Assembly (NCBI RefSeq): GCF_006716785.1
Contig: NZ_VFPQ01000001.1
Span: forward strand, 3,596,001 to 3,660,000
Origin: Thermopolyspora flexuosa
GTDB taxonomy: Bacteria > Actinomycetota > Actinomycetes > Streptosporangiales > Streptosporangiaceae
Length of the DNA stretch: 64,000 nucleotides
Direction: 5' to 3'
Shown: positions 15,175 to 32,546 of the stretch, piece by piece
Numbering within the stretch: the first letter of the stretch is position 1
Layout of the letters: every line of letters begins with the position of its first letter
Program-made: the position numbers and the translations under genes
The notes under the pieces: generated by a model
The model's input: the letters and a program-made list of their open reading frames with translations, nothing else
The model's database searches: none
Told to the model about the DNA's origin: nothing

Positions 15175-16420
15175 TCAGCCCGCGAGCACCCCGGCCAGCC
15201 AGTCGTAGACGATCGACGAGGTCAGGGCGATGTTGCCGATGCCGCAGTGCGCGTCGGCGCCGTCGGCCACGGTCAGCCGGTGGAACCGCTTGTGCGGGAC
15301 GTCGAGGCGCTCGTGGAAGGACGCGGCCTGGGCCCGCTGCACCGCGCTCTCCCCGTCCGCGGACAGCGACAGCACGGGCACGGTGATCCTCTCGACCAGG
15401 TCGGTCAGGCGGAAGGCCCGGGTGAGGCGCAGGAACTCGCCCAGCGACGCGGCACCTGTGGTCCACAGCATGGAGTTCTCGATCGTCGCGGCGAGCGTCC
15501 AGTCCAGCGCCGCGGCCTGCCGGTGGACCTCGTCCCAGAACGCGTCGGGCGCGTCCGGCGGTGGCGGTGTGGGCAGCGCCGTGGTGATCGCGTCCATGAT
15601 CGCCTCGTGGATGTCGAGGATCGGGGCGTTGGCGACGAGCGCCGCGACGCGCCGGTCGAACGCCGCCGCGCGGGGCGCGAGATAGCCGCCGAAGCTCAGC
15701 CCGTACAGGGCGATCCGGTCCGGCCGTACCTCGGGGCGCGCGGCCACGTGGTCGAGTACCGCCCCGAGCGGCACCTCGGCGTCGGCGCGCATCACCTGGC
15801 CGGGATGGTGGTGCAGCAGCCCGCGCTGCCCCGGCCCGTGGAACAGCACGACGTTGAGCCCGCGGGCGAGCGCCTCGGGCACCCCGGCGAGGAAGTACAG
15901 CTCCTCGCCGTGCCCACCGCCGCCGCCCCAGATCACCACGGTGGGCCGGGGCGCGCCGTCGCCTGCCGCGGCGAAGAAGTAGCCGGGCAGGTTCGGGCCG
16001 TCGCGGTACGGCACGCGCAGCCGCTCGGCCGGCGTGCCGAGCAGCGGCAGCGCCCGGTCGAAACAGGACACCCCCTCGTCGTACAGCGCCGCGGCCTCGG
16101 CCGGGCGGCTCCGGTCGACGAAGAACTCGGCGGCGCGCAGGTAGTTGTAGGCACGGTGGAAATGCGTGCGGGCGGTCGCCGTCCGCCCCGCGGCGAGGGC
16201 CTCCCGCGCCCGGGCCGCGTTCGGCCAGCCCTGCTCGGCCCCAGGCGCGCACGTACGCCTCCCGGCCGCCGCCCGCCTCCGCGATCCTGCGGGCCACGTA
16301 CGCCACCTCGCCGGCGGACGCCGCGCCGTACCCGGCGTAGGCGAGGGTGCGGATGAAGGCGAAATCCTGAAGTTCACCGGCGGCGAGCCCGAGCCGGTTG
16401 ACCGTCATCACCCTGGCCAT
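15175..16420 (-). pseudogene. Alpha/beta hydrolase gene with a +1 frameshift
   Basis: The coding signal begins at ATG 16420 (GGGGAG upstream; MARVMTVNRLGLAAGELQDF) and continues as FAFIRTLAYAGYGAASAGEV to about residue 65. It then continues in another frame from about 16240 (NAARAREALAAGRTATARTHF, LRAAEFF) to the stop at 15175. The joined product is a DUF1100/FrsA-like alpha/beta hydrolase with nucleophile motif YGLSFGGYLAPR and a C-terminal His region (DGADAHCGIG). An extra base between about 16200 and 16250, in a GGCC/CGCG-rich run, explains it. It may be a real lesion, a sequencing error or, less likely, programmed frameshifting. It is divergent from the TetR gene. Confidence 0.75.
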
Positions 16421-16504
16421 CGCGAATTCTCCCCTTGCTGGTGAAATGTCACCCCCAAGGGTTGTGAAATGGGCTGTGTCGTACCATCGGCAACCGTCTC
16501 GGAG

Positions 16505-16521
16505 TGTCGCGCCGTGCGACA
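16505..16521. promoter_or_regulatory. Candidate TetR operator
   Basis: Perfect inverted repeat TGTCGC (16505-16510) and GCGACA (16516-16521) with a 5-base spacer, ending 11 bases before the TetR start codon and within the region divergent to the hydrolase. A further TGTCGC half lies at 16534. Confidence 0.5.
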
Positions 16522-16532
16522 TGGGGGGACAG

Positions 16533-17147
16533 ATGTCGCATAGCCTTCAGGCCGCCCGCACGCGACGGCTGATCCGCCAGGCGTTCGTGGAGCTGGTCGA
16601 CGAAAAGGGCTTCACCGAGGTGACCGTTTCGGACATCGCGGCCCGCGCGATGGTCAATCGGGCCACGTTCTACCGCCACTTCCGGGACAAGTACCACGTG
16701 GCCGAGCAGATTTTCGCCGAGATCGCCGCCGAGATCCCCCTCGACGCGGACCCCGCCGCCCAGGATCCGACCGACCGCGTACGGTCATGGACCCGGTTCT
16801 TCGAGCGTTTCGCCACGCACGCCAAACTGTTCCGCCCGCTCCTCGGCCGCCGCGGCGACCCCGCCTTCACCGCCCACCTGCGCGAACTCTGCGTCCAGGT
16901 GGCCCGCCGGCGGCTCGGCACGGCCAGGCGGACCTGCCCCCTCGCCGGGCGCACGCCGTCCGGCATCCCCGAGGACCTGGTCCTCTTCCTCGCCGCCAAC
17001 CACATCGTCGCCACCCTGAGCTGGTGGCTGGAGGACGGCCGCCACCACACCCCGGAACAGATGGCCACCACCGTCGTGCAATTCTTCAGCCAGGGCTACT
17101 TCCGCGCCCTCGGCCTCCACGATCTCCCTCTCGGTGACCGCAAATGA
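16533..17147 (+). CDS. TetR-family regulator
   Basis: 204 residues. TetR helix-turn-helix lies in about residues 8-55 (RLIRQAFVELVDEKGF, VTVSDIAARAMVNRATFYRHF), followed by a TetR_C-type ligand-binding domain with WWLEDGRHHTPEQMA. ATG 16533 was chosen because GGGGGGA lies 5 bases upstream; earlier ATGs run into the dyad. It is divergent from the frameshifted hydrolase, its probable target. Confidence 0.9.
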   Translation: MSHSLQAARTRRLIRQAFVELVDEKGFTEVTVSDIAARAMVNRATFYRHFRDKYHVAEQIFAEIAAEIPLDADPAAQDPTDRVRSWTRFFERFATHAKLFRPLLGRRGDPAFTAHLRELCVQVARRRLGTARRTCPLAGRTPSGIPEDLVLFLAANHIVATLSWWLEDGRHHTPEQMATTVVQFFSQGYFRALGLHDLPLGDRK

Positions 17148-17413
17148 TCATCGGCCCGTTCGCTCCCGATGCGATAGGGGGTTACCGGCAATTCGTCCAC
17201 ATACGGCTGCCCTCGCCGCCTCGTACGGGCGGGAACACTTCACTGTTCCCGTCAGCGCAGCGAGATCGAAACGGAAAGGCCGAGACGGTCGACTTCCTGC
17301 CGCGCCCGCCATGTTCCTCCAAGATGGTCACGAGGCCGGCCTCTGCCATATCGAGCCCACGGCGGAACCGACCGCCGGCCGGTCCCAGGTAGCGAGTCTG
17401 AAAGGCGCGAAGA

Positions 17414-19387
17414 ATGGAGCGACCGCCCCCGGTACCCCCGGGAACAGGGCCGCTGTCGCCCGATTTCTCCGGGATGAATCCGGCCCTGATGGCCGAGTTC
17501 GTCGCGCTGCTGGAGAAGGCGCAGGCCGTTCTGCGGGAGGAGACGGGGGCGATACTCGCCGAGCTGGCGCGGGTCGGCGGCGACCGTACCCGTATGCTGC
17601 GCGTCCAGGACGTGGCGAACTGGGTGGAGCGGCAGCTTCCGGATCTGCGGCGTCGCGAGGAGCTGGCCCGCAAGACCGGCGCGCTGCCGTCCTGGACGCC
17701 CGGCGGCGGGCAAGGGCTGCGTCCGTTCGACGAGAGCGCCTTCGTCAGCGTGACCGAGGCCCGGCTGCGGGGCGCCGCCCTCGCCCGCTCGATCGGCGAC
17801 GTCTCCCCCTTCACCATCGGCGCCCGCGACAGGTACGCGACGTTCGTCAAGACGCTCGCCGAGCACGAGGACGACCCCGATTTCACCGCGGCGTTCTTCG
17901 CGGAACTCGGCCTGGAGAGCACGCTCGACCTCGGGCGGCGGCTGCGCGGCGCGCTGGGCGATGACGCCGATAAGGCGATCGACACGGTCAGCCGCGCGTT
18001 CGGCACGGCGATCCGCTCCGGCGGCGGCTCGCGCGCGTTCGCCCAGATGCGGGAACGGCTCGCCGCCGGGCCCGTTCTCACCAAGGCCGGAGGCGTGACG
18101 GTACGCAAACACGGCCTCGGCGATCTGCTGCGCGCGGGCGAGTTCCCCGCGGGTTGGCTCGCCGGCGTGGTCAACCGGCATGCCCTCGCCCCCGACAGCA
18201 ACGTCAGCGGCGAGGACCTCGCCGGCTTCCTCAACGCCCTCGGCAACAACCCTGCCGCGGCTCGCGCGGCGATCGCCGCGGCGACCCGCGACGTCCCCCT
18301 GGAGACCTTCCTCCGGCGGCTCAACGACCGGGTCGCGGTGCGGTCCAGCTTCGCCCATCAGGACCACCTTCAGGCCAAGGAGAACTCGCGGGCGGACGCC
18401 TTCGGCCGGATGCTCGCCGCCGCGGCGGGCGCGTACGACGAGCGGGACGGCGCGCACAGCGCCGAGGCCGCCAGGCTCGCGTTCGATCTCATCAGGACGT
18501 TGCCGAAGCTGGACATCGCCGAGCCCACCAGGGTGCACCTCGCCGAGATCGCCGGGGCGTACGCCACGGAGATCACCGAGGGGGCGAACCTCAGCGACGC
18601 CAACCGCACCCTGCCCAGCGCCTTCGGCGCGGTGAAGACCGTGGTCCCCGGGCTCAAACCGGCCTTCCGGCTGAGCCCGGCCGACACGTTCGCGTTCGTG
18701 AAGACGTTCGCCACCTCACCTGCAACGATCAAGCCCTTCGAGAAGGGCATGGGTGACCTCGCCGACCGGCTCGTCCGGGCCGCGGCCGACGGCGCCCGCG
18801 GCATCGAACCTCTGGAGCGGGTCATGCGCGCCCTGGGCCACGTCTCCGGCATGCAGTACGCCGCCGAGCGGCTGGTTCAGGGCGCCCTCGACGCCGAGGA
18901 CGAGGCGAGACGCAAAGGGCAATCCTTCCTACTGGGCCTCGCCCTCGGTGTGGCCGGGATCGTCGTACCGCTCGAGGGCCAGGCACTGTGGCTGGCCCTG
19001 AGCACCGGCGCCCCGCTCGCCTTCGACAAACTCACCGAGGTCGACAAGACGCGGCTGCAGGCACTCGACGACAAGGTACGGCTCGCCGCCCTGGCCCGCG
19101 GCCACTGGCTGGTCAACGCCCTCATTGACAGCGGCTTCAGACCGACCGTGCCCGCCACCGACCCGCGCTTCGCCCACCCGCCGATCACCGGCCCGGACGG
19201 CCGCCTGCTCCCCTTCGACCAGATCGCCAAGGACAAGCAGGCCCTCCGCAACCTCAACAACTGGCTCATCGCCAACGGCTCGGGCGGCACCTCAAAGACC
19301 AAACTCGGCGAGGCGGCGAAATGGCTGGACGAGATCGTCTTCAACGGGGCACGCGCGACCTCAGCCCAAGATCCAGCACCCCACTGA
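17414..19387 (+). CDS. Large DUF6571-like protein, copy A
   Basis: 657 residues, mostly helical. I assign it to the actinobacterial DUF6571-like group found with WXG100-like proteins; function unknown. An N-terminal coiled segment (MAEFVALLEKAQAVLREE) may be the WXG-like helical hairpin. Middle blocks include FRLSPADTFAFVKTFA and the C-terminal half a hydrophobic Gly/Ala stretch (about 505-535, LLGLALGVAGIVVPLEG) that could be a membrane-inserting hairpin, then KVRLAALARGHWLVNALIDSGF. It is a clear paralogue of the protein at 42017-43981 (shared LSP.DT..F..TF, AAA.LG..SG.Q and ..A.GF blocks). No ribosome site is strong; ATG 17474 is an alternative start. Confidence 0.78.
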   Translation: MERPPPVPPGTGPLSPDFSGMNPALMAEFVALLEKAQAVLREETGAILAELARVGGDRTRMLRVQDVANWVERQLPDLRRREELARKTGALPSWTPGGGQGLRPFDESAFVSVTEARLRGAALARSIGDVSPFTIGARDRYATFVKTLAEHEDDPDFTAAFFAELGLESTLDLGRRLRGALGDDADKAIDTVSRAFGTAIRSGGGSRAFAQMRERLAAGPVLTKAGGVTVRKHGLGDLLRAGEFPAGWLAGVVNRHALAPDSNVSGEDLAGFLNALGNNPAAARAAIAAATRDVPLETFLRRLNDRVAVRSSFAHQDHLQAKENSRADAFGRMLAAAAGAYDERDGAHSAEAARLAFDLIRTLPKLDIAEPTRVHLAEIAGAYATEITEGANLSDANRTLPSAFGAVKTVVPGLKPAFRLSPADTFAFVKTFATSPATIKPFEKGMGDLADRLVRAAADGARGIEPLERVMRALGHVSGMQYAAERLVQGALDAEDEARRKGQSFLLGLALGVAGIVVPLEGQALWLALSTGAPLAFDKLTEVDKTRLQALDDKVRLAALARGHWLVNALIDSGFRPTVPATDPRFAHPPITGPDGRLLPFDQIAKDKQALRNLNNWLIANGSGGTSKTKLGEAAKWLDEIVFNGARATSAQDPAPH

Positions 19388-19399
19388 TCTCGCCTGTTA

Positions 19400-19855
19400 T
19401 CACTCGATCGGGAGGCACTCGGTCCGGCCGTTTACCACATAGCGTTTCTCGCCCGGAGATTCTATGGTGATCCGCGTACGGGCGGTGGTGCTGACGAGCT
19501 CACGTTTAGTATCGCCGAGTTTGGCGTCGGTAAGCGTGTAGTCACCGAGCGCGGTCAGGCCACCGACCATATTGGTGACCAGCCCTTCCGGGTCACCCGA
19601 CCCGAAGTTGTCCACTCCGGTCGCACCATAGGTCTGCATTGCCCGGTTTTCCCCACAGGGGATGTTTTTCCCTCCCGGGTCGGTGACCTTGATATCGGAG
19701 GCACGCACCCTTTCCAGCAGCTGGGTGATGTGCTGTTTCAGGATCGCTCCCGCCTCGGCTGCGGTGGGTTCGTCGGAGTTCCCATCGCCGCATCCGGCCA
19801 GCGCGAGCAAAGCAATGAAGATGAGCGAAACGGTGCGGCGTAATGAGTGTGCCAT
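19400..19855 (-). CDS. Small lipoprotein with KNIPCGE motif, copy A
   Basis: 151 residues. Signal peptide with lipobox LAGC (Cys about residue 22) and a mature domain of about 125 residues with two cysteines (GGKNIPCGENRAMQTYG and TECLPIE at the C-terminus), likely a disulfide. It is related to the lipoprotein at 43989-44465 (KDIPCGEGGFRRV, TACLSG). Each copy sits immediately 3' of, and convergent with, a DUF6571-like gene (12 bases here). GGAG lies 6 bases before ATG 19855. Function unknown; an envelope partner or immunity-like protein is possible. Confidence 0.8.
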   Translation of the reverse strand: MAHSLRRTVSLIFIALLALAGCGDGNSDEPTAAEAGAILKQHITQLLERVRASDIKVTDPGGKNIPCGENRAMQTYGATGVDNFGSGDPEGLVTNMVGGLTALGDYTLTDAKLGDTKRELVSTTARTRITIESPGEKRYVVNGRTECLPIE

Positions 19856-20309
19856 CACCTGCTCCCGTGGCCGACGACCGAATACCGAATGTGATCGTCG
19901 TGCGAGAAAGACCGATCCGTGTGATCGGCTGATCACGCGAACGAGGCCCGGGGAAGAACGTGCCTGACCTGATCCCTTGGCGAGCGACGGGGCCTCGATT
20001 GCACCTCCAACGGGTCGAGACCTCCCCACCTCATCACGTCGCGGCCAGCCCGACCACCAGCGGAAACACAGACACTGCGTAGCGCTGATGACGATCATCA
20101 CGCAGTCTAATCCACCGACAAGGCCGTGTCATGCTTTGAGTTCCAACACCATCTTCCGGCGGCCACTCTTCACTTAACGCCCGTAGCACAATGCGGACAT
20201 GACATGCCATTCTTGCGGCCAGCGCTGGCAATCACTGCGCGAATCACATACTGTTCGACCGAGAGGCACGGCGACTCTTGACGAAGTGCACGAATAGGCA
20301 GGAACTGAT
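19856..20309. other. Intergenic region with two hairpin elements
   Basis: No gene seen in 454 bases of lower GC. CCGATC/GATCGG (19912-19928, 5-base spacer) lies upstream of the lipoprotein and could be an operator. At 20074-20106 ACTGCG and CGCAGT enclose a second perfect stem, TGATGA/TCATCA with loop CGA, with a 6-base bulge on the 5' side. Confidence 0.4.
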
Positions 20310-20591
20310 ATGGAAAAGCTCGTTCCGAATCCTCGCTACGAGGAGCTGGAACGCGCTCTCGCCATGATGCGATCGCGGGGTGAAAGGTTGCAGGCCGCCT
20401 TGGATCCCGCGTTCGATGCCTTCACCTCCCGCGCGGTCTGGGTCGGGCCGGCCGCGAGAGCGTTCCGCGACGGGCTCGCCCACTACCGGAATCTGCTCAA
20501 GACGGCGGTCAACGACGTCATCGCCGACCTGGAAGCCCAGCTCGGATCCATCAGGCGGGAGATCCCACCCAACTCGATCCGGGGCGGCTGA
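20310..20591 (+). CDS. WXG100-like small helical protein, copy A
   Basis: 93 residues, predicted all-helical hairpin. AVWVGPAARAFRDGL at about residues 45-59 is the W-x-G turn typical of WXG100/ESX substrates; AGGA lies upstream of the ATG. It is paralogous to the protein at 41630-41938: both begin LVPNPR/MVPNPR, followed by EEL/VEL and V-W-x-G-P. In copy B this gene lies directly before the DUF6571-like gene, whereas here it lies after the lipoprotein gene. It may be exported by a type VII system encoded elsewhere (inference). Confidence 0.78.
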   Translation: MEKLVPNPRYEELERALAMMRSRGERLQAALDPAFDAFTSRAVWVGPAARAFRDGLAHYRNLLKTAVNDVIADLEAQLGSIRREIPPNSIRGG

Positions 20592-20896
20592 CCGGCGCAT
20601 CAACTCGGCGTACGTCCCGGTTGATGCCACCCCGAGGGCAGTTGATTGTGCCACCACCGTGGACATGTTCGTCGCCGATCGGGCAGCCATGAGCGGTGTG
20701 GCACCGCAAGAACGCCGAGGCCGTACCCCGATCGGTGAGGCGGTTGGCGCCCGTCTGCGGGAGGGCGACACCCGGGCCGGACGCACCGGGATCGTTCCGC
20801 ATCCCGGTGGGTCCGGTCGAGTCCGTGGCCGGTGGGATCACAATCGGGTCCTGTTCCGAACCCGGCGCCGAAGCTCACCGGCGATATCTGTGTTGG
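20592..20896. other. Intergenic region, nothing recognised
   Basis: 305 bases between the convergent WXG100-like gene and the helicase gene. Only short GC-rich frames are present, and I see no clear terminator. Confidence 0.35.
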
Positions 20897-23506
20897 TCAC
20901 TCCGTCTCAGGAGGACTCCGGTCAGGATCGCCGCCGAGGGCGGTTTCCACGCGATGGCCTCCCCAACCCGTGTCCGTCTTCCAGATGATCGACACGTCGA
21001 GGATCTCGCGGATCACGTCCACCGCCCAGGTGTCGGAGGGTTCCGCGGGCAGGACAAGGAAGATCTCGTCCACCCGGTCCCCGCCGGCCCACCCGATCTC
21101 ACGGGCGTGCACCGCCGCCGCGCGCAGTTCCGTGTAGGTGTGCGCCGCGCGAGCCGACACCACGTAGATCGTGGTTCCTCGATCGGTCGTGCGGGCGACG
21201 TAGCCGAGGTCGGCCTCGACCGGGTCGAAATCGTTCTTGCACAGGTCGGCCATGAGCGCGTAGCGGAGGTAGCCGTGGCCGCGCTGCCTGTGGTCGGCGG
21301 TGGCCTGCTCCCGCAGCCCCGCGAGGAGCCGGTCGCGGCTCTCGTACGTCCCGGTGTCCGTCGAGGTGTGTGCCTCGGGCGCGGCGTCGGCCGCAGCGGC
21401 CTTCTGGCCGGTGCCCTTTGCCGGGCCGCCGAGTTCGGCGGGGAGCGGGGCGGAGTGGAGGACGGTCAGCGTCTGGGTGCACCGGGTGATCGCGACGTAG
21501 AGCCTGCGCAGCCCCACCGGGCCCTGCTCGGCGAGGAGCTGCGGCTCCACCACGATCACGTGGTCGAACTCCAGCCCTTTGGCCATGCTCGCCGGCAGGA
21601 CGGTGATCTGCCGGCCGAGCCCGGGCAGGGCCGACTCCTGGGCCGCCGCGACCTCGCCGCGGATCCCGTCCAGCAGCTCCCCGTCGTCCGGCGTGATGAT
21701 CGCGACCGACCGCACCTGGTCCTCGCTGCGCATGGCGAGGTTGAGGGCGCGGGAAACCGTCTCCGCGACGAGCTTGGCACGCCGGACCGGCGTGACGGTC
21801 AGCGAGCCCGGGGCGGGCGGGCGGATCGGCCCCGGGTACGCGGTGGACGGCGACAGGGCGGTGGCGAGCGGCCTGGCGAACTCCATGACCTCCCGCGGCA
21901 CCCGGTAGCCGGCGGTGAGCTCGGCGATGCGCCAGCCGTCGCCTCCCGCGAGGATGCCGACGAGGCGGCCCCACACGTCGTACTGACGACTCCCGACGCT
22001 CTGGGCGAGGTCCCCGAGCACGGTCATGGATCCGCTCGGGCAGCGGCGGGCGAGCGAGCGGGCCTGCATGGGGGTGAGGTCCTGGGCCTCGTCCACGACG
22101 ATGTGCCGGTAGCGCCGCGGCTCGTCGCCCGACAGCAGCACCCGCAGCTCCTCGAGGCACACGAGGTCCTCCGGCGTCCACGGCTCGTCGGCCGTCCGCC
22201 GGGCCTGCGGCCGCAGCAGGGCACGCTGCTCCTCGTCGGTGAGCACGCCGAACGCCGCCTGCCGTACGGCTTCCGCCGAGTCGTACAGGTGACGCAGCAC
22301 GCGCTCGGCGGTGAGGCTCGGCCAGACCGCGTTGAGGAGGGCGGCGAGGCGCGGCTGCCGCTCCGCCTGGGAGCGGAACCCGGGGTCGATGCTCTTGCGC
22401 CGGTTCGCGGGCCACCGCTCGAGCAGCAGGTCCAGGGTGCGGTCGATGAAGCGCCTGCGCCGCACGAGGTAGGGGCCTGCGGAGTCCCGCGCCTCCCGGA
22501 CGAGGTCGACGAGTTCCGCCCGGCCGATCCTCAGCAGCACGCCGCGGAAGACGAACTCGAGGTCCTCGGTGATCCGGTCGGGGCGGATCCAGGCCTCGAC
22601 GGCGTTGCGCAGCACCGTGGCCATGCGCTCGTCGGACTTGACCAGCCGGGCCTCCGGCGTGTCGGTGCCGCGGACCTCGCCGTCCCACAGCTGGGAGATC
22701 TCCACGATGGAGACGCCACGGCTGCCGAGCCGGGGCAGCACGTCCTTGACGTACCGCAGGAACTCCCGGTGCGGGCCGACGACGAGCACCTCGTCGGGGG
22801 TGAAGCGCCCGTTGTCGAGCAGCCAGGTGACCCGGTGCAGCCCGACCGCGGTCTTGCCGGTACCCGGGCCGCCCTGGATGACCAGCAGTCCCTTGCGGTC
22901 GTCGGAGACGAGCAGCAGCTGGTCGCGCTGGATGGTCTCGACGATGTCCCGCATCGACCCGTCGCGCGCCCGGTCGAGCTCGGCGAGCAGGAAGGGATCG
23001 ACGCCTGCGGTGGTCTCGGCCCCGGCGTCCGCCTGCGGCGGGGATGCGGCGGTCGCGGACTCCGGGGGCGGCTGGATCAGCCGGTCGCTGTAGTCGAGGA
23101 CCTTGCGCTCCTCGCAGTGGAGCCTCCGCAGCCGCCACACGCCCCTGGGGTCGTCGGGCGTGGCGGCCTGCCACCGTACGGCCTGCGGGCTGCTCCACTT
23201 GACCAGCACCAGGTCGCCGTTGCGGTCGCGTACGGTCCGGCGGCCGAGATACCAGGTGAGCCGAGCGTCGGGATCCTCGGTGAGGTCGACGCGGGAGATG
23301 ACGAGGGACCGCCCGCCCAGATCCTCACGGAGGCCGAACTCGGCGGGTACGTCGGGCACGGGGGCGAGCCCGGCGTCGGGGCAGTCCGAGCGCAGCTTGG
23401 CGCGGACGGCGTCGACGGAGCGCTGATCCTCGTCCGCACAGGCGTAGATGCGGTCCACTTCGCGCTGCTCTTCGGCGATGACGTCGGCGCGGTCGACCTG
23501 ACCCAT
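20897..23506 (-). CDS. HelD-like UvrD/Rep-family helicase/ATPase with extra C-terminal domain
   Basis: 869 residues. The N-terminal coiled region (EEQREVDRIYACADEDQRSVDAV cut short: EEQREVDRIY, DEDQRSV) and WYLGRRTVRD block are typical of HelD. Walker A GGPGTGKT is at about 212-219, preceded by IQRDQLLLV. Walker B HIVVDEAQDLTPMQ, AELTAGYRVP and VIVVEPQLL..GLRRLYVAITRCTQ complete the SF1 core. HelD proteins dislodge or recycle RNA polymerase. After about residue 720 a further 130-150 residues follow (GYLRYALMADLCKNDFDP, TTIYVVSARAAHTYTEL, DEIFLVLPAEPSDTW) that are not part of usual HelD. GGAGG precedes ATG 23506. A DNA-repair or defence helicase is the alternative. Confidence 0.85.
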   Translation of the reverse strand: MGQVDRADVIAEEQREVDRIYACADEDQRSVDAVRAKLRSDCPDAGLAPVPDVPAEFGLREDLGGRSLVISRVDLTEDPDARLTWYLGRRTVRDRNGDLVLVKWSSPQAVRWQAATPDDPRGVWRLRRLHCEERKVLDYSDRLIQPPPESATAASPPQADAGAETTAGVDPFLLAELDRARDGSMRDIVETIQRDQLLLVSDDRKGLLVIQGGPGTGKTAVGLHRVTWLLDNGRFTPDEVLVVGPHREFLRYVKDVLPRLGSRGVSIVEISQLWDGEVRGTDTPEARLVKSDERMATVLRNAVEAWIRPDRITEDLEFVFRGVLLRIGRAELVDLVREARDSAGPYLVRRRRFIDRTLDLLLERWPANRRKSIDPGFRSQAERQPRLAALLNAVWPSLTAERVLRHLYDSAEAVRQAAFGVLTDEEQRALLRPQARRTADEPWTPEDLVCLEELRVLLSGDEPRRYRHIVVDEAQDLTPMQARSLARRCPSGSMTVLGDLAQSVGSRQYDVWGRLVGILAGGDGWRIAELTAGYRVPREVMEFARPLATALSPSTAYPGPIRPPAPGSLTVTPVRRAKLVAETVSRALNLAMRSEDQVRSVAIITPDDGELLDGIRGEVAAAQESALPGLGRQITVLPASMAKGLEFDHVIVVEPQLLAEQGPVGLRRLYVAITRCTQTLTVLHSAPLPAELGGPAKGTGQKAAAADAAPEAHTSTDTGTYESRDRLLAGLREQATADHRQRGHGYLRYALMADLCKNDFDPVEADLGYVARTTDRGTTIYVVSARAAHTYTELRAAAVHAREIGWAGGDRVDEIFLVLPAEPSDTWAVDVIREILDVSIIWKTDTGWGGHRVETALGGDPDRSPPETE

Positions 23507-23628
23507 TGCTACCTCCACGGGTGGGCCGAGGGAGAGGGAAGTCGATGCCTGCCGGGAACGTGCGACCGGCAGACGGGGTGTTCGGCGGTTGCGGCCCGCG
23601 GGAGGGCCGCTGCCGGGTACGCCGCCGG

Positions 23629-24147
23629 TCAGGCGGCCTGGGCGACGGGCGGCTCGAAGGTGACGACCTCGGGGGCGGCCAGGTAGAGGCGCCAATTGAG
23701 CGAGCCCCGCTTCGAGACGACGGTGACGTGCATGCCGTGTCCGGCGAGCCAGGCGGCCAGGTCGGTGAAGTGGCCGTCGCCGGAGCCGATCACCACCCGC
23801 TCGAACCGCTCCGGGAGGCGGTCGGCGTAGCCGCACTCGGTGAGCGCGCGGTCGGCCCCGTCCGGGCCCGAGCGGATCAGCAATTGGATGCCGCGCAGCG
23901 CAATCCCGACGGAGAGCACGGCGCGGGGGTTGACCGCGACCACGAACTGGTCGGCCGGGCCGACCGGCACGAGCCCGCGGTAGCGGCTCATGAACGCGGT
24001 GACCTGCGCGGCGGTGGGGCTGGGCGAGCCGGTCAGGTTCTCGATGTCGAGCAGGTGGATGCCACGCCCGCGCCGCAGCAGGCGCCTGCGCCGCCGCGTG
24101 CGGGTGCGGGACCGGTGGGATGCCGCAGGGCAGACGGTAGGGGGCAT
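23629..24147 (-). CDS. NYN-domain (PIN-like) ribonuclease
   Basis: 172 residues from ATG 24147. A basic Arg-rich N-terminus (residues 12-28) suited to nucleic-acid contact precedes a NYN/PIN-like fold with predicted metal ligands D34 (HLLDIENL), D99 and D124 (GSGDGHF). GMHVTVVSKRGSLNWRLYLAA closes the domain. Such proteins cleave RNA. The second Asp of the usual SGDxDF is His here. It is encoded 122 bases upstream of the helicase on the same strand and is divergent from the methylase at 24297. Confidence 0.85.
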   Translation of the reverse strand: MPPTVCPAASHRSRTRTRRRRRLLRRGRGIHLLDIENLTGSPSPTAAQVTAFMSRYRGLVPVGPADQFVVAVNPRAVLSVGIALRGIQLLIRSGPDGADRALTECGYADRLPERFERVVIGSGDGHFTDLAAWLAGHGMHVTVVSKRGSLNWRLYLAAPEVVTFEPPVAQAA

Positions 24148-24198
24148 GAGCGGGCTTCCCTTTCCAGCAGGGTACGGCGTGCCGACGCCAACCATTGA

Positions 24199-24208
24199 AA
24201 CACGTGTT
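24199..24208. promoter_or_regulatory. Perfect palindrome between NYN and methylase genes
   Basis: AACACGTGTT is a perfect 10-base palindrome in the shared divergent region. The methylase carries an N-terminal HTH, so autoregulation is possible. Confidence 0.4.
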
Positions 24209-24237
24209 GATGCAATCGACCAACAGATTTCGAGACG

Positions 24238-24267
24238 TTGGCATGAAGTGACGGGTTGCTGTATGGT
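24238..24267 (+). promoter_or_regulatory. Candidate sigma-70-type promoter of the methylase gene
   Basis: TTGGCA (24238-24243) and TATGGT (24262-24267) with an 18-base spacer; the start codon lies 30 bases after the -10, leaving room for GGAGG at 24286-24290. Confidence 0.5.
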
Positions 24268-24296
24268 CGCGCCGAACACCGAAGCGGAGGAGTGAC

Positions 24297-26327
24297 GTGG
24301 CCAAGGACGTCGAGGTGACGGTGGCCGATATCGCCCGGCTGGGCGGTGTCGGACGCGCCGCGGTGAGCAACTGGCGCCGCCGGCACGACGACTTCCCGCA
24401 GCCCGTGGGCGGCACCTCGGTCAACCCCGTCTTCTCACTGGCCGAGGTACGGCGGTGGCTGCTCGCCCATTCCGAGGGCAAGAAGCTGCCCGAACGCGAG
24501 TGGCTCTGGCAGGACCTGCGAGCGTGCACGGCGTCGGACGATCCCGCGGAACTGATCGCCGACCTCGGCGCCTTCCTCGTCTACCTGCACCGGAACCGGG
24601 CGGACTGGGCCGAACTGTCCGCGGCGGACGACGCCACCGTCGCCACCGAACTCCCCCGCCGGGTCCACGCCGTGTGCGCCGAGATCCTCGACGACCCGCC
24701 GACACCGCACTCCCTGGCGAAGGTCGAGGTACCGCTGCTGCGCCGCCTCGCCGATCTCGCCGACGCCGACGGTCCTGCCACGACCTTCGGCTTCCTCCGC
24801 GACCGCTGGTTCGAACTGCACAGCAGGCGCACGTACGCCACCCCCGAACCCGTGGCGAAACTCATGGCCGAGCTCGCCGGGCTCGCCGCCGAGGCGGTGC
24901 TCGACCCGGCCTGCGGCACGGGGGCCCTGCTGGAGCCTTTCCGCTCCCGCCCGAACGGCCCGCCCGGCCTGCTCCTCGGCCAGGAGCTCGACGCCGCGAC
25001 CGCCCGCCTCACCGCCGTGCACCTCGCGTTCGGCTCCGCGCGGGTGAAGATCGCTCCCGGCGACTCGCTGCGGAACGACGCCTTCCCGGACGTGCTCGTC
25101 GACACGGTCGTGTGCTACCCGCCGTTCAACGACCGCGCCTGGGGATATGAGGAGCTGGCCGCCGACCCTCGCTGGGACTACGGCCTGCCGCCGCGCATGG
25201 AGTCCGAGCTCGCCTGGGTGCAGCACGCCCTCGCCCACCTCAAACCTGGCGGCACCGCCGTACTGGTCATGCCACCGGCCGCCGCCAATCGCAGGTCGGG
25301 CCGCCGTATCCGGAGCCAGCTCATCCGCCGCGGCGCGCTCCGGGCGGTGATCGCCCTGCCGCAGGGCGCGGTGCCGAACATGGCGGTCGCCCTCATGCTG
25401 TGGGTGCTGCGCCGCCCTGCCGACGCCCGCGCCCCCGAGCACGTCCTGATGGTCGACACCGCGACCCGCCCGGTCGACTTCGCCCGCGTCGCGGCCGACG
25501 CCTGGGCCCGCTTCGACCGAGGCGAGCACGCCGACGAGCCGGGAGTCAGCACCGCCGTACCGGTCGTCGAGCTGCTCGACGACGCCGTCGACCTCACCCC
25601 CGCCCGCTACCTCGTCCCACCCGCCGAGGACCTGACTCCCGAGCGGATCACCGCCGAAGGCGAGAAGATCGCCACCTTGCTCCGCGCAACCGCCGACCTG
25701 ATCCCAGCCGTCGAGGCCCTTGGCGAATCGGGCAACCTACCCACGGTCCCGCTCGCCGAGCTCGAACGGCGCGGCATGCTCACCATCCACCAGAGCATGT
25801 CCGCGGCCAACTTTTCACTTCTCCTCAGCGATCTCCCCTTTTTCACGCTCGAGGAACTGCTCGGCGAGAAGAGACCGGACGATGTCGCGCCGCCCTCTGT
25901 CTTGGCCCAGCACGTGATCGCGGTCGAGCCTGGAGACGTGCTGGTCACGCAGCACGCAACCCGGCTGATCGCCCTAGTGGTGGCGAATCGCTGCGTCGTC
26001 CCCGGCCCTCGCGTGACCCTGCTGCGACCGGACCCCGAACGGCTCGACCCCCATTTCCTCGCCGGCTTCGTCAGCGGCTCGACGAACGTCCGCCACTACA
26101 CCGGAACCGGCAGCAGGCTGTTCACCGACATCCGCCGCGCCGAGATCCCGCTGCTGCCCATCGAGGAGCAGCGCGCGTACGGCGAAGCCTTCCGGCGCCT
26201 GACGGATTTCGGCCGCGACCTGCGCCACGCGGCGGCCATGGGCGAGGATCTGATCCGACTTATCTCGGACGGCCTCACACAGCGAATCGTGCGGCCCGCC
26301 GGTACGCATACGAATGGAACACGGTGA
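24297..26327 (+). CDS. HTH + N6-adenine methylase + HsdS-like specificity fusion
   Basis: 676 residues from GTG 24297 (GGAGG 7 bases upstream). An N-terminal MerR/HTH-like domain (about 7-60, VTVADIARLGGVGRAAVSNW) is followed by helices and an HsdM-type methylase domain with motif I LDPACGTGALLEPF (about 202-215) and motif IV CYPPFN (about 273-278). A C-terminal target-recognition region (about 480-650, VEPGDVLVTQHATRLIALVV, GTGSRLFTDIRRAEIPLLP) resembles type I specificity subunits. The motif IV position that is normally Asn/Asp/Ser is Tyr here, so activity is doubtful. No endonuclease subunit is present. It may be a modification enzyme or a methyl-sequence reader/regulator. Confidence 0.87.
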   Translation: MAKDVEVTVADIARLGGVGRAAVSNWRRRHDDFPQPVGGTSVNPVFSLAEVRRWLLAHSEGKKLPEREWLWQDLRACTASDDPAELIADLGAFLVYLHRNRADWAELSAADDATVATELPRRVHAVCAEILDDPPTPHSLAKVEVPLLRRLADLADADGPATTFGFLRDRWFELHSRRTYATPEPVAKLMAELAGLAAEAVLDPACGTGALLEPFRSRPNGPPGLLLGQELDAATARLTAVHLAFGSARVKIAPGDSLRNDAFPDVLVDTVVCYPPFNDRAWGYEELAADPRWDYGLPPRMESELAWVQHALAHLKPGGTAVLVMPPAAANRRSGRRIRSQLIRRGALRAVIALPQGAVPNMAVALMLWVLRRPADARAPEHVLMVDTATRPVDFARVAADAWARFDRGEHADEPGVSTAVPVVELLDDAVDLTPARYLVPPAEDLTPERITAEGEKIATLLRATADLIPAVEALGESGNLPTVPLAELERRGMLTIHQSMSAANFSLLLSDLPFFTLEELLGEKRPDDVAPPSVLAQHVIAVEPGDVLVTQHATRLIALVVANRCVVPGPRVTLLRPDPERLDPHFLAGFVSGSTNVRHYTGTGSRLFTDIRRAEIPLLPIEEQRAYGEAFRRLTDFGRDLRHAAAMGEDLIRLISDGLTQRIVRPAGTHTNGTR

Positions 26328-26780
26328 TCACCAACCACCAGACGTACGCGAACTTCCTCTGGTCCGTCACCGATTTACTGCGGAGCCGAGAGGAGAAGAA
26401 CTCGCCGCGATGAGTTCCCCAGAGTGATGCGGACAGGACGGTAATCAGTGGCGGTGGTACGCCCGAGCACCGCGTCGAGCCGCTGTCCCGGCTGCGACGG
26501 CTCCGCGACGCGCTGATCAACGGCCGTTGCGGGGCTCGAACACGATGGTCATGCCGAAGCCGTCGTGATACACGCCAACGAAGCCGTCCTCGCCGCACTC
26601 GACCGGGACCTCCTCGCCTCGTCCCTGGCCGTGGCGAACTCCGCAACCTGCCGCAACTCCTGAAAGATGATCAAATGCGGCTTGTCATCCTGCAATGCGT
26701 CATCAGAAGGATCCAGCAGGACGCCACAGCGACAACGGTCCACTCGTAAGCCCAACCCACCGCCACGCCGAGGCCGACGC
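26328..26780. other. Intergenic region with possible gene remnant
   Basis: No intact gene in 453 bases. At 26538-26663 a 41-codon open segment reads protein-like (EHDGHAEAVVIHANEAV, then LAALDRDLLASS), and just upstream another frame reads SRLRRLRDALINGR. They could be pieces of one decayed gene; I cannot assign a family. Confidence 0.3.
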
Positions 26781-28385
26781 TCACGCCACTGCGACGGACC
26801 GCAGCCTCTCGTCCAGGCTTCGCACGTGCGCGTTGTCCGACCAGGGCTCCAGGCGTTGGCGGGCCTGGGTGAGCATGTGGGCGAGGCGGGCCGAGCTGTG
26901 GGTGCGCATGATGGTCACCGCCTCGGAGAGCTTGGCCGTGGCCGCCGGGATCTCCTTGCTCTGGATCAAGGCCATGCCGTGGTGGATCAGGCCGAACGCC
27001 CGTTCCCTGGTGTAGCCGGAGCCGAGGGCCTTGAGCTGGGAGGCGGCGGTGTCGGCGGCCTTCCGGGCGTTGCCGAGGGCGGTGTAGACGAAGCAGGAGG
27101 CGCCTTCCATGCCTCGTGATTCCCTGACCCAGTAGAGGTAGGGAGGTTCGATCGACGTCGGCCTGTCCGCCCAGCTCTTGGCGGCTTCCAGGCCGCGCAG
27201 CGCCTCGGTGGCCTGGCCGGCGAGGCCGTGGGCCCAGGCCGAGGAGACGGCGTTGCACGCCCGGACCAGGTCGCTGCCGCCGCGTCGGGTCCATCCCTGC
27301 GTGGCGAACGCGTGGTCCAGGGCGGTCCCGGCGTCGCCGCGGAAGGCGGCCATCCAGCTGTGCCAGTGGTGGATGTAGGCGACGAGAACGGCGTCGCCGG
27401 TCTCGTGCGCGGCCTCGAGCCCGGCGTCGAACGCACGCTCGGCGGCCGGGTAGTCCAGGCGGTCGTAGTGCAGGTATCCGGCGAGCTGGGCGAGTTCGGC
27501 GTAGGCGTGGACGAGGCGGGCCCGCAGGCCGGGGAGCAGGGACTGGGTGCCGAGCAGGCGGGCGACCAGCTTGCGCTGGGCTTCGACGACGGAGAGGACC
27601 TTGGCCGGGCCGTAGGTGTCGTCGAGGCGGCGGCACCGGGCGATGAGCTTCTCGATCGTCGCCACGGTTTCGGCGTCGACGCGTCCCTGGGCTCGGACGA
27701 CGCGGGCGAGCCGGGCCTCCTCGTCCGGATCCAGCTGGCGGAGCAGCGCCAGGGCGGGCGCACCGCCCAGGGCGAGGGACAGCTCCAGCAGCAGCTCCCG
27801 TCGTTTCATGTCGGCCTCCTCGGCGCTGACGGCGCGGAACAGCGCCGTGCAGCTCTCCACGCTCAGGGCAGCGGCCTCGGCGGCACTGCGGGCGGTGACC
27901 CGGCGCGGTCCTCCCGGGTGTGCCTCGTCGTCCATGCTGACACGTTGCTGTTGAACCGGGCAGGACGAGAAAGGTTGAAACGGGTCGAGGTGACGGAAGT
28001 CTGCCCGATCGATCACATCCCGGTCGTGGGCGCTGTAGGTGGCGAAGACCTCGCCGGTGAGGAGGTTGCGTGCCCGGGTCTGGTAGACCTGCGCCAGCAG
28101 GGCGAGCACCCGCGCCGTGGGGCGGCGGCCCGCGGCGGGCCAGGCCTCGAAGTCGTAGAGGCGGCCCTCGCGCAGCGTCGCCGTACCGGCCGGGTCGAGG
28201 GCGTTGAGCTCGTCGACCACGTCGACGGCGGTACGGCCGTGGGCGAGCCGGTAGCAGCGCAGCGGGCCGACCTCGTGGACGAGCGCGATGACGTCGGCGA
28301 TCTGGTCCCAGGTGAAGCGTTTCGCGCGCAGCGCCTCGCTCCACGAGCGGCAGCGCAGCACGATCGCGTAGCCCTCACCGGACAT
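26781..28385 (-). CDS. HTH plus TPR-type transcriptional regulator
   Basis: 534 residues. The N-terminal part (about 1-115; WSEALRAKRFTWDQIADVIAL, TLREGRLYDFEAWPA, ALLAQVYQTRARNLLTGEV) resembles an XRE-type HTH of actinomycete NsdA-like regulators, and the rest (about 200-520) is a TPR-like helical array (YPAAERAFDAGLEAAHETGD, ALGNARKAADTAASQL). ATG 28385 has GGAG 8 bases upstream; ATG 28421 is an alternative. It is divergent from a HATPase protein, a pairing frequent in actinomycete developmental regulation. Confidence 0.82.
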   Translation of the reverse strand: MSGEGYAIVLRCRSWSEALRAKRFTWDQIADVIALVHEVGPLRCYRLAHGRTAVDVVDELNALDPAGTATLREGRLYDFEAWPAAGRRPTARVLALLAQVYQTRARNLLTGEVFATYSAHDRDVIDRADFRHLDPFQPFSSCPVQQQRVSMDDEAHPGGPRRVTARSAAEAAALSVESCTALFRAVSAEEADMKRRELLLELSLALGGAPALALLRQLDPDEEARLARVVRAQGRVDAETVATIEKLIARCRRLDDTYGPAKVLSVVEAQRKLVARLLGTQSLLPGLRARLVHAYAELAQLAGYLHYDRLDYPAAERAFDAGLEAAHETGDAVLVAYIHHWHSWMAAFRGDAGTALDHAFATQGWTRRGGSDLVRACNAVSSAWAHGLAGQATEALRGLEAAKSWADRPTSIEPPYLYWVRESRGMEGASCFVYTALGNARKAADTAASQLKALGSGYTRERAFGLIHHGMALIQSKEIPAATAKLSEAVTIMRTHSSARLAHMLTQARQRLEPWSDNAHVRSLDERLRSVAVA

Positions 28386-28442
28386 CGGCCGCTCCTTCCG
28401 CGAGCCCGCCTTCACCTGCATGAACGCACGGATCGTATAGCG

Positions 28443-28453
28443 AACGTCACGTT
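28443..28453. promoter_or_regulatory. Palindrome in divergent promoter region
   Basis: AACGT-C-ACGTT is a perfect 5+1+5 dyad followed by a further ACGTG. The reverse strand has TATACG at about 28433-28438 as a possible -10 for the TPR regulator, so the dyad would lie just upstream of it. Confidence 0.4.
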
Positions 28454-28640
28454 ACGTGCAGCCGGTATGGCGATCCGGTCGGCCGCCGCGGAGTGGCGCA
28501 TCCGGGCAGGCGGGCGTCTTCGCACGTCACCGACGCCGCCGGGCCGGGTGGTCACCGCCCGGATGTGGATCTCCGCGCGGCGGCGGGCCCACGCCACCGT
28601 TGTGGCGGCCAACATCGCGATCGACGCAAGGAGCCGCCAC

Positions 28641-29135
28641 ATGTCCTCTCTCCCCGACCGTGGCATCGGCATGGCCCGGGCGGAGCTTCCCGAGCCGTGC
28701 CCCGAGCTGATCTGGGCCGCCGCCTGCCGGCCCGGCGAGGCCGTGACCTGGCGGAAGATCTTCCCCGGCACCACCGAGCGCGTGGCCGAGGCGCGCCGCC
28801 TGACCGGGCTGTTCCTCGACGACACCCCGCTCGCCGACGACGCCGCCTGGATCGTGGGCGAGCTCGCCGCCAACGCCGTGCGCCACACCAGATCCGGCGA
28901 GGCCGGTGGCGAGTACGTGCTCGAGCTGCGCCGAACCCGGCACCTCGCCCGGCTCACCGTGTGCGACCTCGGCGGCGGGGGCAGGCCGACGTTCACGCCC
29001 GCCGCGCCCGGCCTGCCGTACGCCGAGCACGGCTACGGCCTGCGCGCCATCGCACAGCTCGCCGCCCGCACCGGGGTGCGCGGCACCCCCGAATACGGCC
29101 ACGCGGTCTGGGCCGACCTGCTGCTCGGCGGGTGA
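28641..29135 (+). CDS. RsbW-like ATP-binding (anti-sigma kinase type) protein
   Basis: 164 residues with a single HATPase_c_2 domain: IVGELAANAVRHTR (N box, about 73-86), VCDLGGGGRPTF and EHGYGLRAIAQLA (G boxes). There is no histidine or membrane segment. Such proteins act as anti-sigma or regulatory kinases in actinomycetes. AAGGAG lies 8 bases before ATG 28641. It is divergent from the TPR regulator and convergent with the sarcosine oxidase operon, ending 26 bases from it. Confidence 0.87.
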   Translation: MSSLPDRGIGMARAELPEPCPELIWAAACRPGEAVTWRKIFPGTTERVAEARRLTGLFLDDTPLADDAAWIVGELAANAVRHTRSGEAGGEYVLELRRTRHLARLTVCDLGGGGRPTFTPAAPGLPYAEHGYGLRAIAQLAARTGVRGTPEYGHAVWADLLLGG

Positions 29136-29161
29136 CCGCCCCGGCCTGACGCGCGGCAGGG

Positions 29162-32100
29162 TCAGGACGTGGCCGCCGCGTCCGCCCGGCAGGCGTCGAG
29201 GAGCCGGTCGGCGAGGTAGGTGGCGTACGAGGCGCGCACGTACAGGCGGTAGGTGTCGTCGGCGGTGCGCTGCACGATGACCGGGGCCTGGCCGAGCAGG
29301 GTCTGGGCGTGCTGGCCGACCTCGAACACGTTCGGGTGGAGGTCGATCGGGCAGCCGGTGAGCAGCAGCTCGCGGGCGTCCGGGCCGGACAGCTCGATGA
29401 TCGTGCGCTGGGCGGAGACGTCCACGCAGCAGCCGGCGTGCACCACCGGCTCCTCGTCGCCGACGATGAGCCACCAGCCCGGGCCGAGCTCGAGCACGTC
29501 GCTCGTGGGCGCCGACGGCACGGCGCGGGCGCGTACCTCCCACATCTGGAGGAACGGGATCTCCCGGATGGTCGTGCTGCCCGTCCCGGCCGCGGCGAAG
29601 CGCTCCGCGTACCCGGCGAGCGGGCTGCGCGCGGTGGCGCGGGGGAACGGGCGCGGCGGCTCGGGCAGCCACTCCCGCTCCGCGGGGTCGCCGTCGCGGC
29701 GCGTGTTGTCCGGGTCGTAGAAGACCGGGTCGACCACGGTCACCGGTACGGCACGGCCGCGCGACCAGGCGACCAGCCGGTCCCCGGGCGACGCCGTCGC
29801 CAGCGCGAGCGCGAAGGTACGGCCCAGCGCGGCGCTGCGGTACGACGAGGTGACGTGGCCGAGCATCGGCACCGGCGGGCGCGGCGGGCCGTCCCCGTTC
29901 GGCGCGATGAGCTGGGCGCCCTCGTCGACGAGCACGGACGGGTCCTCGGGCAGCAGGCCGACCAGCCGCCTGCGGCCGGGGCGGCGGGTGTCGGGGCGGG
30001 CGAACGAGCGCTTGCCGATGAAGTCGCGCTTGCGGGTGGAGACGAGCCGGGACAGGCCGAGGTCGTGCGGGGTGACCGTGCCGTCGGTCTCGTGGCCGAC
30101 GAGGATGTAGCCCTTCTCGGCCCGCAGCACGTGCATCGCCTCGGTCCCGTACGGCACGGCCCCGAGCTCGAGCACCGCGTCCCACACGGCCGCGCCGTAC
30201 CAGGACGGCACGTTGATCTCGTAGGAGAGCTCGCCGGAGAAGCCGACGCGGAGGATGCGCGCCCCCGCGACGCCGAGCACGGTGGCCTCGCGCCAGGTCA
30301 TGAACGGGAAGCCGGAAAGGTCGAGGCCGGGGGCGAGGGCGGCGACGATGCGGCGGGAGTGCGGGCCGGACACGGTGATGGTGGCCCAGTGGTCGGTGAC
30401 CGGGGTGAGCCAGACCCGCAGGTCGGGCCACTCGGTCTGGAGCCACTCCTCCAGCCAGTCGAGCACGGCGGCGGCGTTGCCGGTGGTCGTGGTGGCCAGG
30501 AAGTGGTCCTCGCCGAGCCGGGCGACCACACCGTCGTCGAACACCATGCCGTCGGCGCGGCACATCAGCCCGTACCGGCACGAGCCGACCGGCAGCGTGG
30601 ACATCGTGTTCGTGTAGACGCGGTCGAGGAACTCGCCCGCGTCCGGCCCCTGGATGTCGATCTTGCCGAGGGTGGAGGCGTCGAGCGCGCCGCACGCGGT
30701 GCGCACCGCGGTGCACTCGCGCAGCACGGCCGCCGCCATGTCCTCGCCGGGCAGCGGGTAGTAGCGGGGCCGCAGCCAGCCGCCCGCGTCCTCGAAGACC
30801 GCGCCGCGCGCCACGTGCCGGTCGTGCAGCGCGGTCACCCGGGCCGGGTCCGACAGCATGCCGCGGTCCCGCCCGGCGAGGGCGGCGAACGACACCGGCG
30901 TGTACGGCGGGCGGAACGTGGTCGGGCCGACCGGGTCGCCGAGCAGCGCCGACACCACGGGCGAGGTGACCGCGGTCTTGCCCTGCTCCGCCCCGGTCCC
31001 GGCGGTGGTGTACCGCTTGACGTGCTCGGGCGAGCGCAGCCCGGCGCCGAGCGCGCGGCGCACGTCGGCGACGGTCACGTCGCGGTGCAGGTCGACGAAC
31101 GCCTCGCGGTGCGCGCCGGGGGCGGGCTCGTGTTCCACCAGGTCGCGCAGCGGGGCGGTCGGCTCGGCCGGGCCGTCCGGCTCGTCGGTGACCGGCGGGT
31201 CCCATCGCCCGCCGCGCGCGTACCCGCACAGCTCGGCCGCCTGGGCGCCCGCGGCGAAGCCGTCCGCGATCGCGGCGGCCGTGCCGTACACGCCGCGGCA
31301 GGCCCCGGCGGAGCGCTCGGCCTGCGCGGACAGGTGCGGCACGTACGCCTGGAGCTCCTCGTCGAACCGCAGCCTGCCCTGCGACTGGCCGAACAGGTGC
31401 ACGACCGGGTTCCAGCCGCCGCACACCGCGAGCAGGTCGGCCTCGATCTCCCGGTCGGCGCCGCCCGCGCGCACGGTGACCGAGGCGAGCACGCCCTGCC
31501 CGTCGCCGCCGGTGCCGGTGACGGCCGCGCCGCGCAGCACCTCGACGCCGAGGCCGGCGACGGCCGCCGCGGCAGGCCCCTCGCCGGACCGCGGGTCGGC
31601 GATCGCGGCGACCTCCACGCCCGCGGCGAGCAGGTCGGCCGCCGCCTGGTAGCCGGAGTCGGCGCAAGTGAACACGACCGCGCGCCGCCCGGGCAGCACG
31701 CCGTACCGGTTGGCGTAGGTGCGGGCCGCGTTGGCGAGCATGACCCCGGGCCGGTCGTTGCCGGGGAACGGGATGAGCCGCTCGTGCGCGCCGGTGGCGA
31801 GCACCACCCGGGCGGCCCGGATGCGCCACAGCCGGGTGGCGTCCGCGCCGCGGCGCTCCACCGCGACCAGGAAGTTGTGGTCGTAGTAGCCGAGCACGGT
31901 GGTACGGCACAGCACCCGCGTCTCGGGCAGGGCGGCGAGCCGGTCGAGCACGGCCGCGACCCACTCCGCGGCCGGGGCGCCGTCGATGCGCACCCGGGAG
32001 CCGAGCAGGTCGCCGCCCGCCTCCTCCTGCTCGTCGACGAGCACGACGCGGGCGCCGGTGATCCCGGCGGCGAGCGCGGCGGCGAGCCCGGCCGGGCCGG

Positions 32101-32497: not shown

Positions 32498-32546
32498 GTG
32501 TCATCCCCACCCTCTGACCTGCTCGGTGCTCGCTCGCCGTGCCCGG

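Follow-up and report, generated by a model that had tools for sequence, protein, structure and literature searches.

A candidate DNA-binding switch beside a nuclease and HelD-like operon in Thermopolyspora flexuosa, probably a derivative of type I restriction islands

A three-gene cluster of Thermopolyspora flexuosa is best read as a derivative of the extended type I restriction-modification islands of actinomycetes. It occupies positions 20897-26327 of the window, the whole stretch of 64,000 nucleotides that was analysed (C1:3596001-3660000 of a 5.77 Mb genome). A HelD-like motor and an NYN-like nuclease are encoded on the minus strand, and divergently from them, on the plus strand, an HTH-N6-methylase-TRD fusion protein, for which we use the shorthand MT. 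The account we favour, at somewhat short of an even chance, is that MT is an autoregulatory DNA-binding switch over the divergent NYN-HelD operon, which would be a transcription- or RNA-directed arm of the type I islands. Judged from sequence, the cluster resembles a layer of bacterial defence about which little is known, an anti-phage function being suggested only by the gene neighbours. The features on which the argument draws are these:

20897-23506, minus strand: HelD-like SF1 ATPase, 869 aa
20900-21379, minus strand: C-terminal extra domain of this protein, PD-(D/E)XK-like fold, aa 710-869
23629-24147, minus strand: predicted NYN-like (PIN-fold) nuclease, 172 aa
24148-24296, no strand: divergent intergenic region common to both sides, 149 bp
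24199-24208, no strand: perfect 10-bp palindrome AACACGTGTT, read by eye, overlapping the operator-like site
24205-24222, plus strand: conserved operator-like site TGTTGATGCAATCGACCA, from an alignment of relatives
24238-24267, plus strand: promoter-like TTGGCA-18-TATGGT for MT, with matching positions conserved in relatives
24297-26327, plus strand: MT, 676 aa, start codon GTG
25116-25118, plus strand: codon for Y274, with which methylase motif IV (YPPF) opens; position counted from the MT start codon
26324-26412, plus strand: HsdM stub, with a GTGA overlap with the MT stop and 17 HsdM-like residues (26333-26383)

An earlier note on this DNA had described divergent genes with a common promoter region of about 150 bases, and the measured 149 bp agrees. 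An open reading frame extending to 24529 was rejected as the extent of the helicase gene, which covers 20897-23506. Two flanking candidates were also dropped as members of the unit: the upstream genes at 17414-20591, for which no link was found, and an NsdA-family TPR regulator gene (26781-28421, 546 aa), which lies directly downstream on the opposite strand and shows no link in relatives. A search against Rfam returned no RNA family within 16000-34000. Named relatives of the genes come from Nonomuraea, Microtetraspora, Actinomadura and Thermoactinospora, which points to the Streptosporangiaceae in a broad sense.

The connection to type I restriction comes from the gene order of relatives. A Microtetraspora locus (L097) reads HsdR-HsdS-HsdM-MT<>NYN-HelD, with HsdR cut by the locus edge, and a second locus (L093) reads HsdR-HsdS-HsdM<>HelD-NYN. 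HsdR, HsdM and HsdS, which define a type I system, thus stand together in both loci, and the window lacks the set: queries with the L087 HsdS, the L087 and L082 HsdR and five HsdM proteins (E <= 1e-3) found only one 17-residue HsdM match besides MT. These 17 residues are 76% identical to HsdM N-termini, after which homology ends. The stub keeps the GTGA overlap of four bases with the MT stop that HsdM has in L032, L033, L041 and L097. The proposal that the cluster follows no known restriction layout needs a correction: the cluster is not unrelated to known restriction systems, since its relatives adjoin complete type I HsdR/HsdS/HsdM genes and the window itself retains a remnant of HsdM. The further proposal, that the layout is not that of BREX or DISARM, stands for the five window genes scanned: PADLOC found among them no Drm match (DISARM drmA/drmB/drmC), and the scans gave no PglZ, BrxC or PglX (BREX/Pgl), so membership in either system was rejected for these genes. 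The methylase and TRD of MT are related to the M and S subunits of type I systems, and in relatives intact HsdM, HsdS and HsdR genes stand next to MT or HelD; the difference is that MT fuses HTH, M and S in one chain and that the window adds a HelD-like motor and a nuclease. The loss of HsdM and the change in methylase motif IV described below suggest that in the window the regulatory and effector half has outlived the modification half.

The architecture of MT agrees with the methylase/specificity fusion with its own HTH that had been proposed. From the N-terminus it runs through the HTH (about aa 1-58), an N6 methylase domain resembling type I M (about aa 64-440) and, resembling S, one TRD with a long helix (about aa 483-661). 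A profile built from 51 relatives matches type I M subunit structures (7vru at E 2.9e-50, plus others), and its positions 513-647 match the S subunits 5ybb_D and 3okg_A (E about 7e-12). The predicted structure (pLDDT 90.3) aligns to the M subunits 3lkd (Z 31.8) and 7vs4 (Z 30.3), and 534 of its residues align to the intact methylase 7eew with an rmsd of 30.7, that is, in a different domain arrangement. Few parts of MT are as well conserved as the HTH, which lies in the N-terminal 50 residues. The alignment shows no single hypervariable TRD of the HsdS kind: the TRD-like region is moderately conserved, so either paralogues may recognise a common target or target choice may not be the task of the TRD.

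Motif IV of N6 methylases follows [NDS]PP[FYW], and that of the window MT reads YPPF, which makes methylation by this protein doubtful. Among 84 MT sequences the first residue of the motif is N in 34, D in 15 and S in 7, canonical in 56/84; the other 28 carry H (15), A (4), V (4), G (2) or one each of Y, I and T, the sole Y being that of the window. This set left out homologues of 550 aa or less, those above E 1e-40 and those without SNWR (e.g., L031), and gene starts came from a simple gene caller of our own. The altered motif and the HsdM stub had raised the suspicion of general decay, which is weakened by the rest of the protein: the window MT departs at only 1/84 highly conserved sites and ranks 49 of 84 by departures. 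Within a subset of 15 close MT it shows 9/154 departures, the second highest. Since HsdM has been lost and motif IV altered while the rest of MT is conserved, a regulatory or sensing role appears likelier than modification.

The helicase with an extra domain that the earlier note described is present, with SF1 motifs I-VI kept in an alignment of 75 sequences. Its nearest PDB chain is HelD of M. smegmatis (6yxu, E 1.4e-62, alignment starting at residue 60). The NCBIfam HelR/HelD models match it at E 6e-80 to 1e-33, far under their cut-offs, and the best of them gives 269 bits against an equivalog cut-off of 1100. According to a survey, a DWR motif in the N-terminal domain is absolutely conserved in HelD (PMC8655204). 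The window protein has KWS at this place, and across the 75 sequences the Trp is kept in 95% and the flanking D and R are not. For this reason the protein is named HelD-like rather than HelD, and it is uncertain whether it binds RNA polymerase, as HelD of classes I-III does by way of its secondary-channel and clamp arms. Three further HelD-like genes of the T. flexuosa genome lie at least 67 kb from any MT, or on another contig.

Proteins of this HelD branch carry a further domain at the C-terminus, about 130-150 residues long, which in the window protein (aa 710-869) is predicted to fold with a mean pLDDT of 90.6. Foldseek returned no match to it at E <= 0.001. VIA-align placed Cdn1 at the top (Z 10.2, rmsd 3.1, 112 aligned), with VC1899, XisH proteins, Can2, EndoMS and others at Z 8-10. 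Most of these matches have the PD-(D/E)XK fold, and the predicted structure makes the domain look PD-(D/E)XK-like. The active site of this fold is D...(D/E)xK; at the putative positions the branch has D in 72/75 sequences, E in 61/75 and L instead of K in 61/75, and the window protein has Y769 (D769Y), V782 and S. The remainder at the first of these positions consists of two gaps and the window. Because catalytic motifs are altered in both proteins, NPPF to YPPF in MT and D769Y at the HelD C-terminus, a regulatory role seems likelier than methylation.

The second minus-strand gene had been called an NYN nuclease or RNase, and this assignment holds in part. The gene is there, and the residues of its DIEN, GPDGAD and GSGD stretches, which we take to be the NYN/PIN catalytic positions, are conserved with few exceptions, and the acidic ones in 10/10 aligned sequences; D34, E36, N37, D96, D99 and D124 are kept in all aligned relatives. 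The window protein nevertheless stays below the Pfam NYN (PF01936) gathering score, with 16.8 against 24.2 bits, and a close relative in L097 falls just under the cut-off with 23.0 bits. Comparison of the NYN profile with PDB sequences gave nothing convincing, the best matches (E 0.042) being unrelated proteins and 2qip, a protein of unknown function, appearing at E 0.62.

The intergenic region carries the candidate control element. Nine such regions of the NYN and RNase HI types were aligned and have invariant columns in GTTGA, ATC-ACCA, GAC-TTG and TA--GT elements. The palindrome that had been noticed in the promoter is probably AACACGTGTT at 24199-24208, but the element conserved in relatives is a different one that overlaps it, TGTTGATGCAATCGACCA at 24205-24222. 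As the pattern TGTKRA-N5-TCRAC, the site occurs in 36/84 MT upstreams (250 bp each) versus 3/1668 upstreams of the remaining genes of these loci, and Markov shuffles of the MT upstreams gave a mean of 0.055 matches and a maximum of 1. It is found in 21/50 MT clusters (70% identity), forward in the NYN, RNase HI, DUF4352 and direct HelD types and reversed in the PP2C types. As a label on the MT tree it requires 8 changes; the site is clustered by descent yet spread over several MT branches. An operator switch in this exact form is not family-wide, since 48/84 MT upstreams lack the exact motif, including four DISARM-linked and five Streptomyces HelD-linked ones. A longer version of the pattern has seven exact matches in the T. 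flexuosa genome, two of the seven in MT intergenic regions, at 24205 in the window and at C1:4022195 beside a paralogue of the PP2C type. The window site ends 15 bp ahead of the promoter-like TTGGCA-18-TATGGT of MT. A promoter scan found no -10/-35 pair for NYN at the operator-like site, and placing the NYN promoter across it is a guess from conservation.

The idea that the genes form a single, defence-like functional neighbourhood is supported by their co-location. A lack of co-conservation in other genomes, which would have refuted it, is not what the genomes show: MT and HelD are neighbours far above expectation. Co-conservation is not universal, as 11/32 genomes have no MT within 20 kb. 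These 32 genomes, among 341 of the family, hold the HelD branch as defined at E <= 1e-110. By distances computed by hand, MT and HelD are at most 4 kb apart in 12/32 (G000, G194, G384, G311, G308, G365, G328, G356, G085, G334, G354 and G324) and at most 18 kb apart in 21/32; MT is 6-18 kb away in 9/32 and unlinked or absent in 11/32. Chance would put MT within 4 kb in roughly 0.1 of 32, an estimate that assumes genomes of about 8 Mb with some 2.5 MT each. An NYN gene lies within 4 kb of HelD in 7/32. Among HelD loci, MT is nearby in 17/83 (E < 1e-15; 19/83 at E <= 1e-6). When named loci were chosen by HelD alone, 15 of the best 79 of a larger number had MT at 4 kb or less, divergent in 14 of these, and 24 had MT or HsdM within 8 kb; with HelD clustered at 70% identity, MT is within 4 kb in 8/24 clusters from these loci. 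Synteny with the window is full in L097 and in G194, which has the same gene order. In G016, which holds the MT-NYN pair closest to that of the window, the HelD orthologue is elsewhere in the genome.

How could these parts act together? In the favoured account, an MT dimer would bind the operator-like site, probably through its HTH, though the TRD may be the reader instead. The site would fall within what we presume to be the core promoter of NYN-HelD, just upstream of the MT -35. Because of this position MT is predicted to repress NYN-HelD, the opposite of M.SsoII polarity, and bound MT might boost the expression of its own gene. Once MT was titrated, displaced or inactivated, whether by incoming DNA or by a factor of a phage, the nuclease and the HelD-like motor would be made. 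The motor may act on RNA polymerase, perhaps when stalled, and RNA may be the substrate of the NYN nuclease, or of the RNase HI that sister loci carry. Action on transcription complexes is suggested by the effector side, which pairs a motor of polymerase-recycling type with an RNase. A more specific version, to which we give only a small probability, would have the HelD-derived motor clear invading or unmodified DNA of RNA polymerase and the RNase (NYN or RNase HI) destroy the RNA, with MT as sensor and repressor even after the cleaving and modifying subunits were lost.

The same genes allow other readings. If MT were an active m6A methylase marking the host, NYN and HelD could attack unmarked DNA or transcripts. 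The match of its fold to active type I M subunits and of its TRD to HsdS speaks for this, as do the NPPF kept in the other six MT that have NYN divergent from them and the N that starts the motif in 12/13 MT adjoining HsdM. We regard it as unlikely for the window, where the motif is YPPF and the companion HsdM only a stub, and 28/84 MT relatives have none of N, D or S in first place. Those same losses could instead mark the leftover of a decaying type I island, its genes on their way out and without current function as a unit. To the truncated HsdM, the N to Y change and D769Y, at a position that is D in 72/75 HelD, this reading can add the long tree branch of the window MT (0.41; its two nearest relatives have 0.18 and 0.29). 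Three frames that are open at full length, departures at only 1/84 highly conserved sites in MT and 3/138 in HelD, and the retention of the NYN catalytic residues, the ATPase motifs and the operator make it quite unlikely.

Two further alternatives turn on which gene keeps company with which. NYN could be a toxin and MT its regulator or antidote, with HelD as a passenger, and NYN does adjoin MT without HelD in L032-L036 (none within 4.5 kb), G179 and G374. It also adjoins HelD without MT within 4 kb (G272, G239, G260, G367 and G270) and a four-gene ATPase operon, and RNase HI substitutes for it in several loci, so a toxin-antitoxin-like pair is decidedly improbable. There is a very slim chance that a housekeeping or rifamycin-type HelD/HelR gene stands beside a restriction remnant by accident: the sequence relation to the HelR models and to M. 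smegmatis HelD would fit, but the repeated co-location with MT, the altered DWR motif and the added domain would not.

For MT as an autoregulating switch there is precedent in methylases of the M.SsoII type (PMC3978073, PMC6100179). The N-terminal domain of M.SsoII binds a 15-bp palindrome between the divergent M and R genes; its own gene is repressed and that of the restriction enzyme stimulated (PMC6100179). A candidate for such a regulatory site in a divergent intergenic region is present in the window, as far as letters can tell. M.SsoII, as described there, is a C5-cytosine type II enzyme, whereas the fold of MT is type I N6-like and its predicted polarity reversed. HelD/HelR RNA polymerase recycling factors share with the window protein the SF1 core and an overall sequence relation; the window protein differs by having no DWR, by its extra PD-(D/E)XK-like domain and by its defence-type neighbourhood. 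The top structure-bank match of the MT profile is PacII_M1M2S, a type I enzyme with two different M subunits (PMC9613975). Where MT adjoins a separate HsdM, this suggests that the two might form a mixed M pair as in PacII_M1M2S. The latter enzyme is not known to have a fused HTH or TRD.

Known prokaryotic defences mostly target DNA, RNA, NAD or membranes. If the favoured account is true, restriction-type DNA recognition would be coupled to a motor from the family that recycles RNA polymerase, and transcription itself would be the target. Actinomycete HelD paralogues, of which there are up to five per genome with their purpose left open in the survey (PMC8655204), would also gain a defined role. 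The operator-like site predicts genes under MT control in many genomes and would illustrate how type I-like proteins can turn into transcription switches. The parts are of known kinds; the combination, the repeated type I link and the common operator are, as far as our searches show, apparently undescribed. Literature searches found no description of an MT/NYN/HelD module, which is weak evidence of absence, as the word "held" swamps queries for HelD.

MT homologues were found in 74/149 relatives searched, several per genome and four in that of T. flexuosa, and their partners vary. NYN, divergent from MT in the window, L032-L036 and L097, can be exchanged for other partners: RNase HI, a DUF4352-like protein or an SMC-like ATPase. 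RNase HI is the divergent gene in L039, L041, L042, L099, L102, L150 and L165. Other MT adjoin a divergent PP2C phosphatase and a downstream Ser/Thr kinase, DUF4352-like proteins (a label assigned from sequence alone), HsdM, or DISARM genes (L022, L029, L030 and L086). Several of these neighbourhoods are worth recording for themselves. Five Streptomyces loci (L110, L113, L118, L124 and L126) have HsdM-MT on one side and, divergently, genes for an SMC-like ATPase, a 122-aa protein and a longer HelD-like protein (~1130 aa) on the other. AIPR-family proteins, of abortive-infection type, lie near MT-HsdM in L041 and L032, the latter AbiU/MzaE-like in PADLOC. NYN homologues belonging to the family of the window protein are, in L052, L053, L055 and L057-L060, divergent from a conserved four-gene operon ending in an AAA_11/AAA_12-type ATPase, three genes of which have no Pfam match above cut-off in L057.

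The T. flexuosa genome itself holds two of the other arrangements. At C1:4013000-4029000 (L017), as in many relatives, a PP2C phosphatase is divergent from an MT paralogue that is followed by a Ser/Thr kinase; this phosphatase-methylase-kinase set is recurrent and has the operator-like site reversed. At C1:2140000-2157000 (L029), a DISARM-type operon combines drmA-drmB-drmC with an MT paralogue, a UvrD helicase and a Ser/Thr kinase that resembles the PADLOC PD-T4-6 models. The shared MT is its likeness to the window cluster, which differs in having no drm genes. Motif IV of the four DISARM-linked MT starts with A, I, G and V, all non-canonical.
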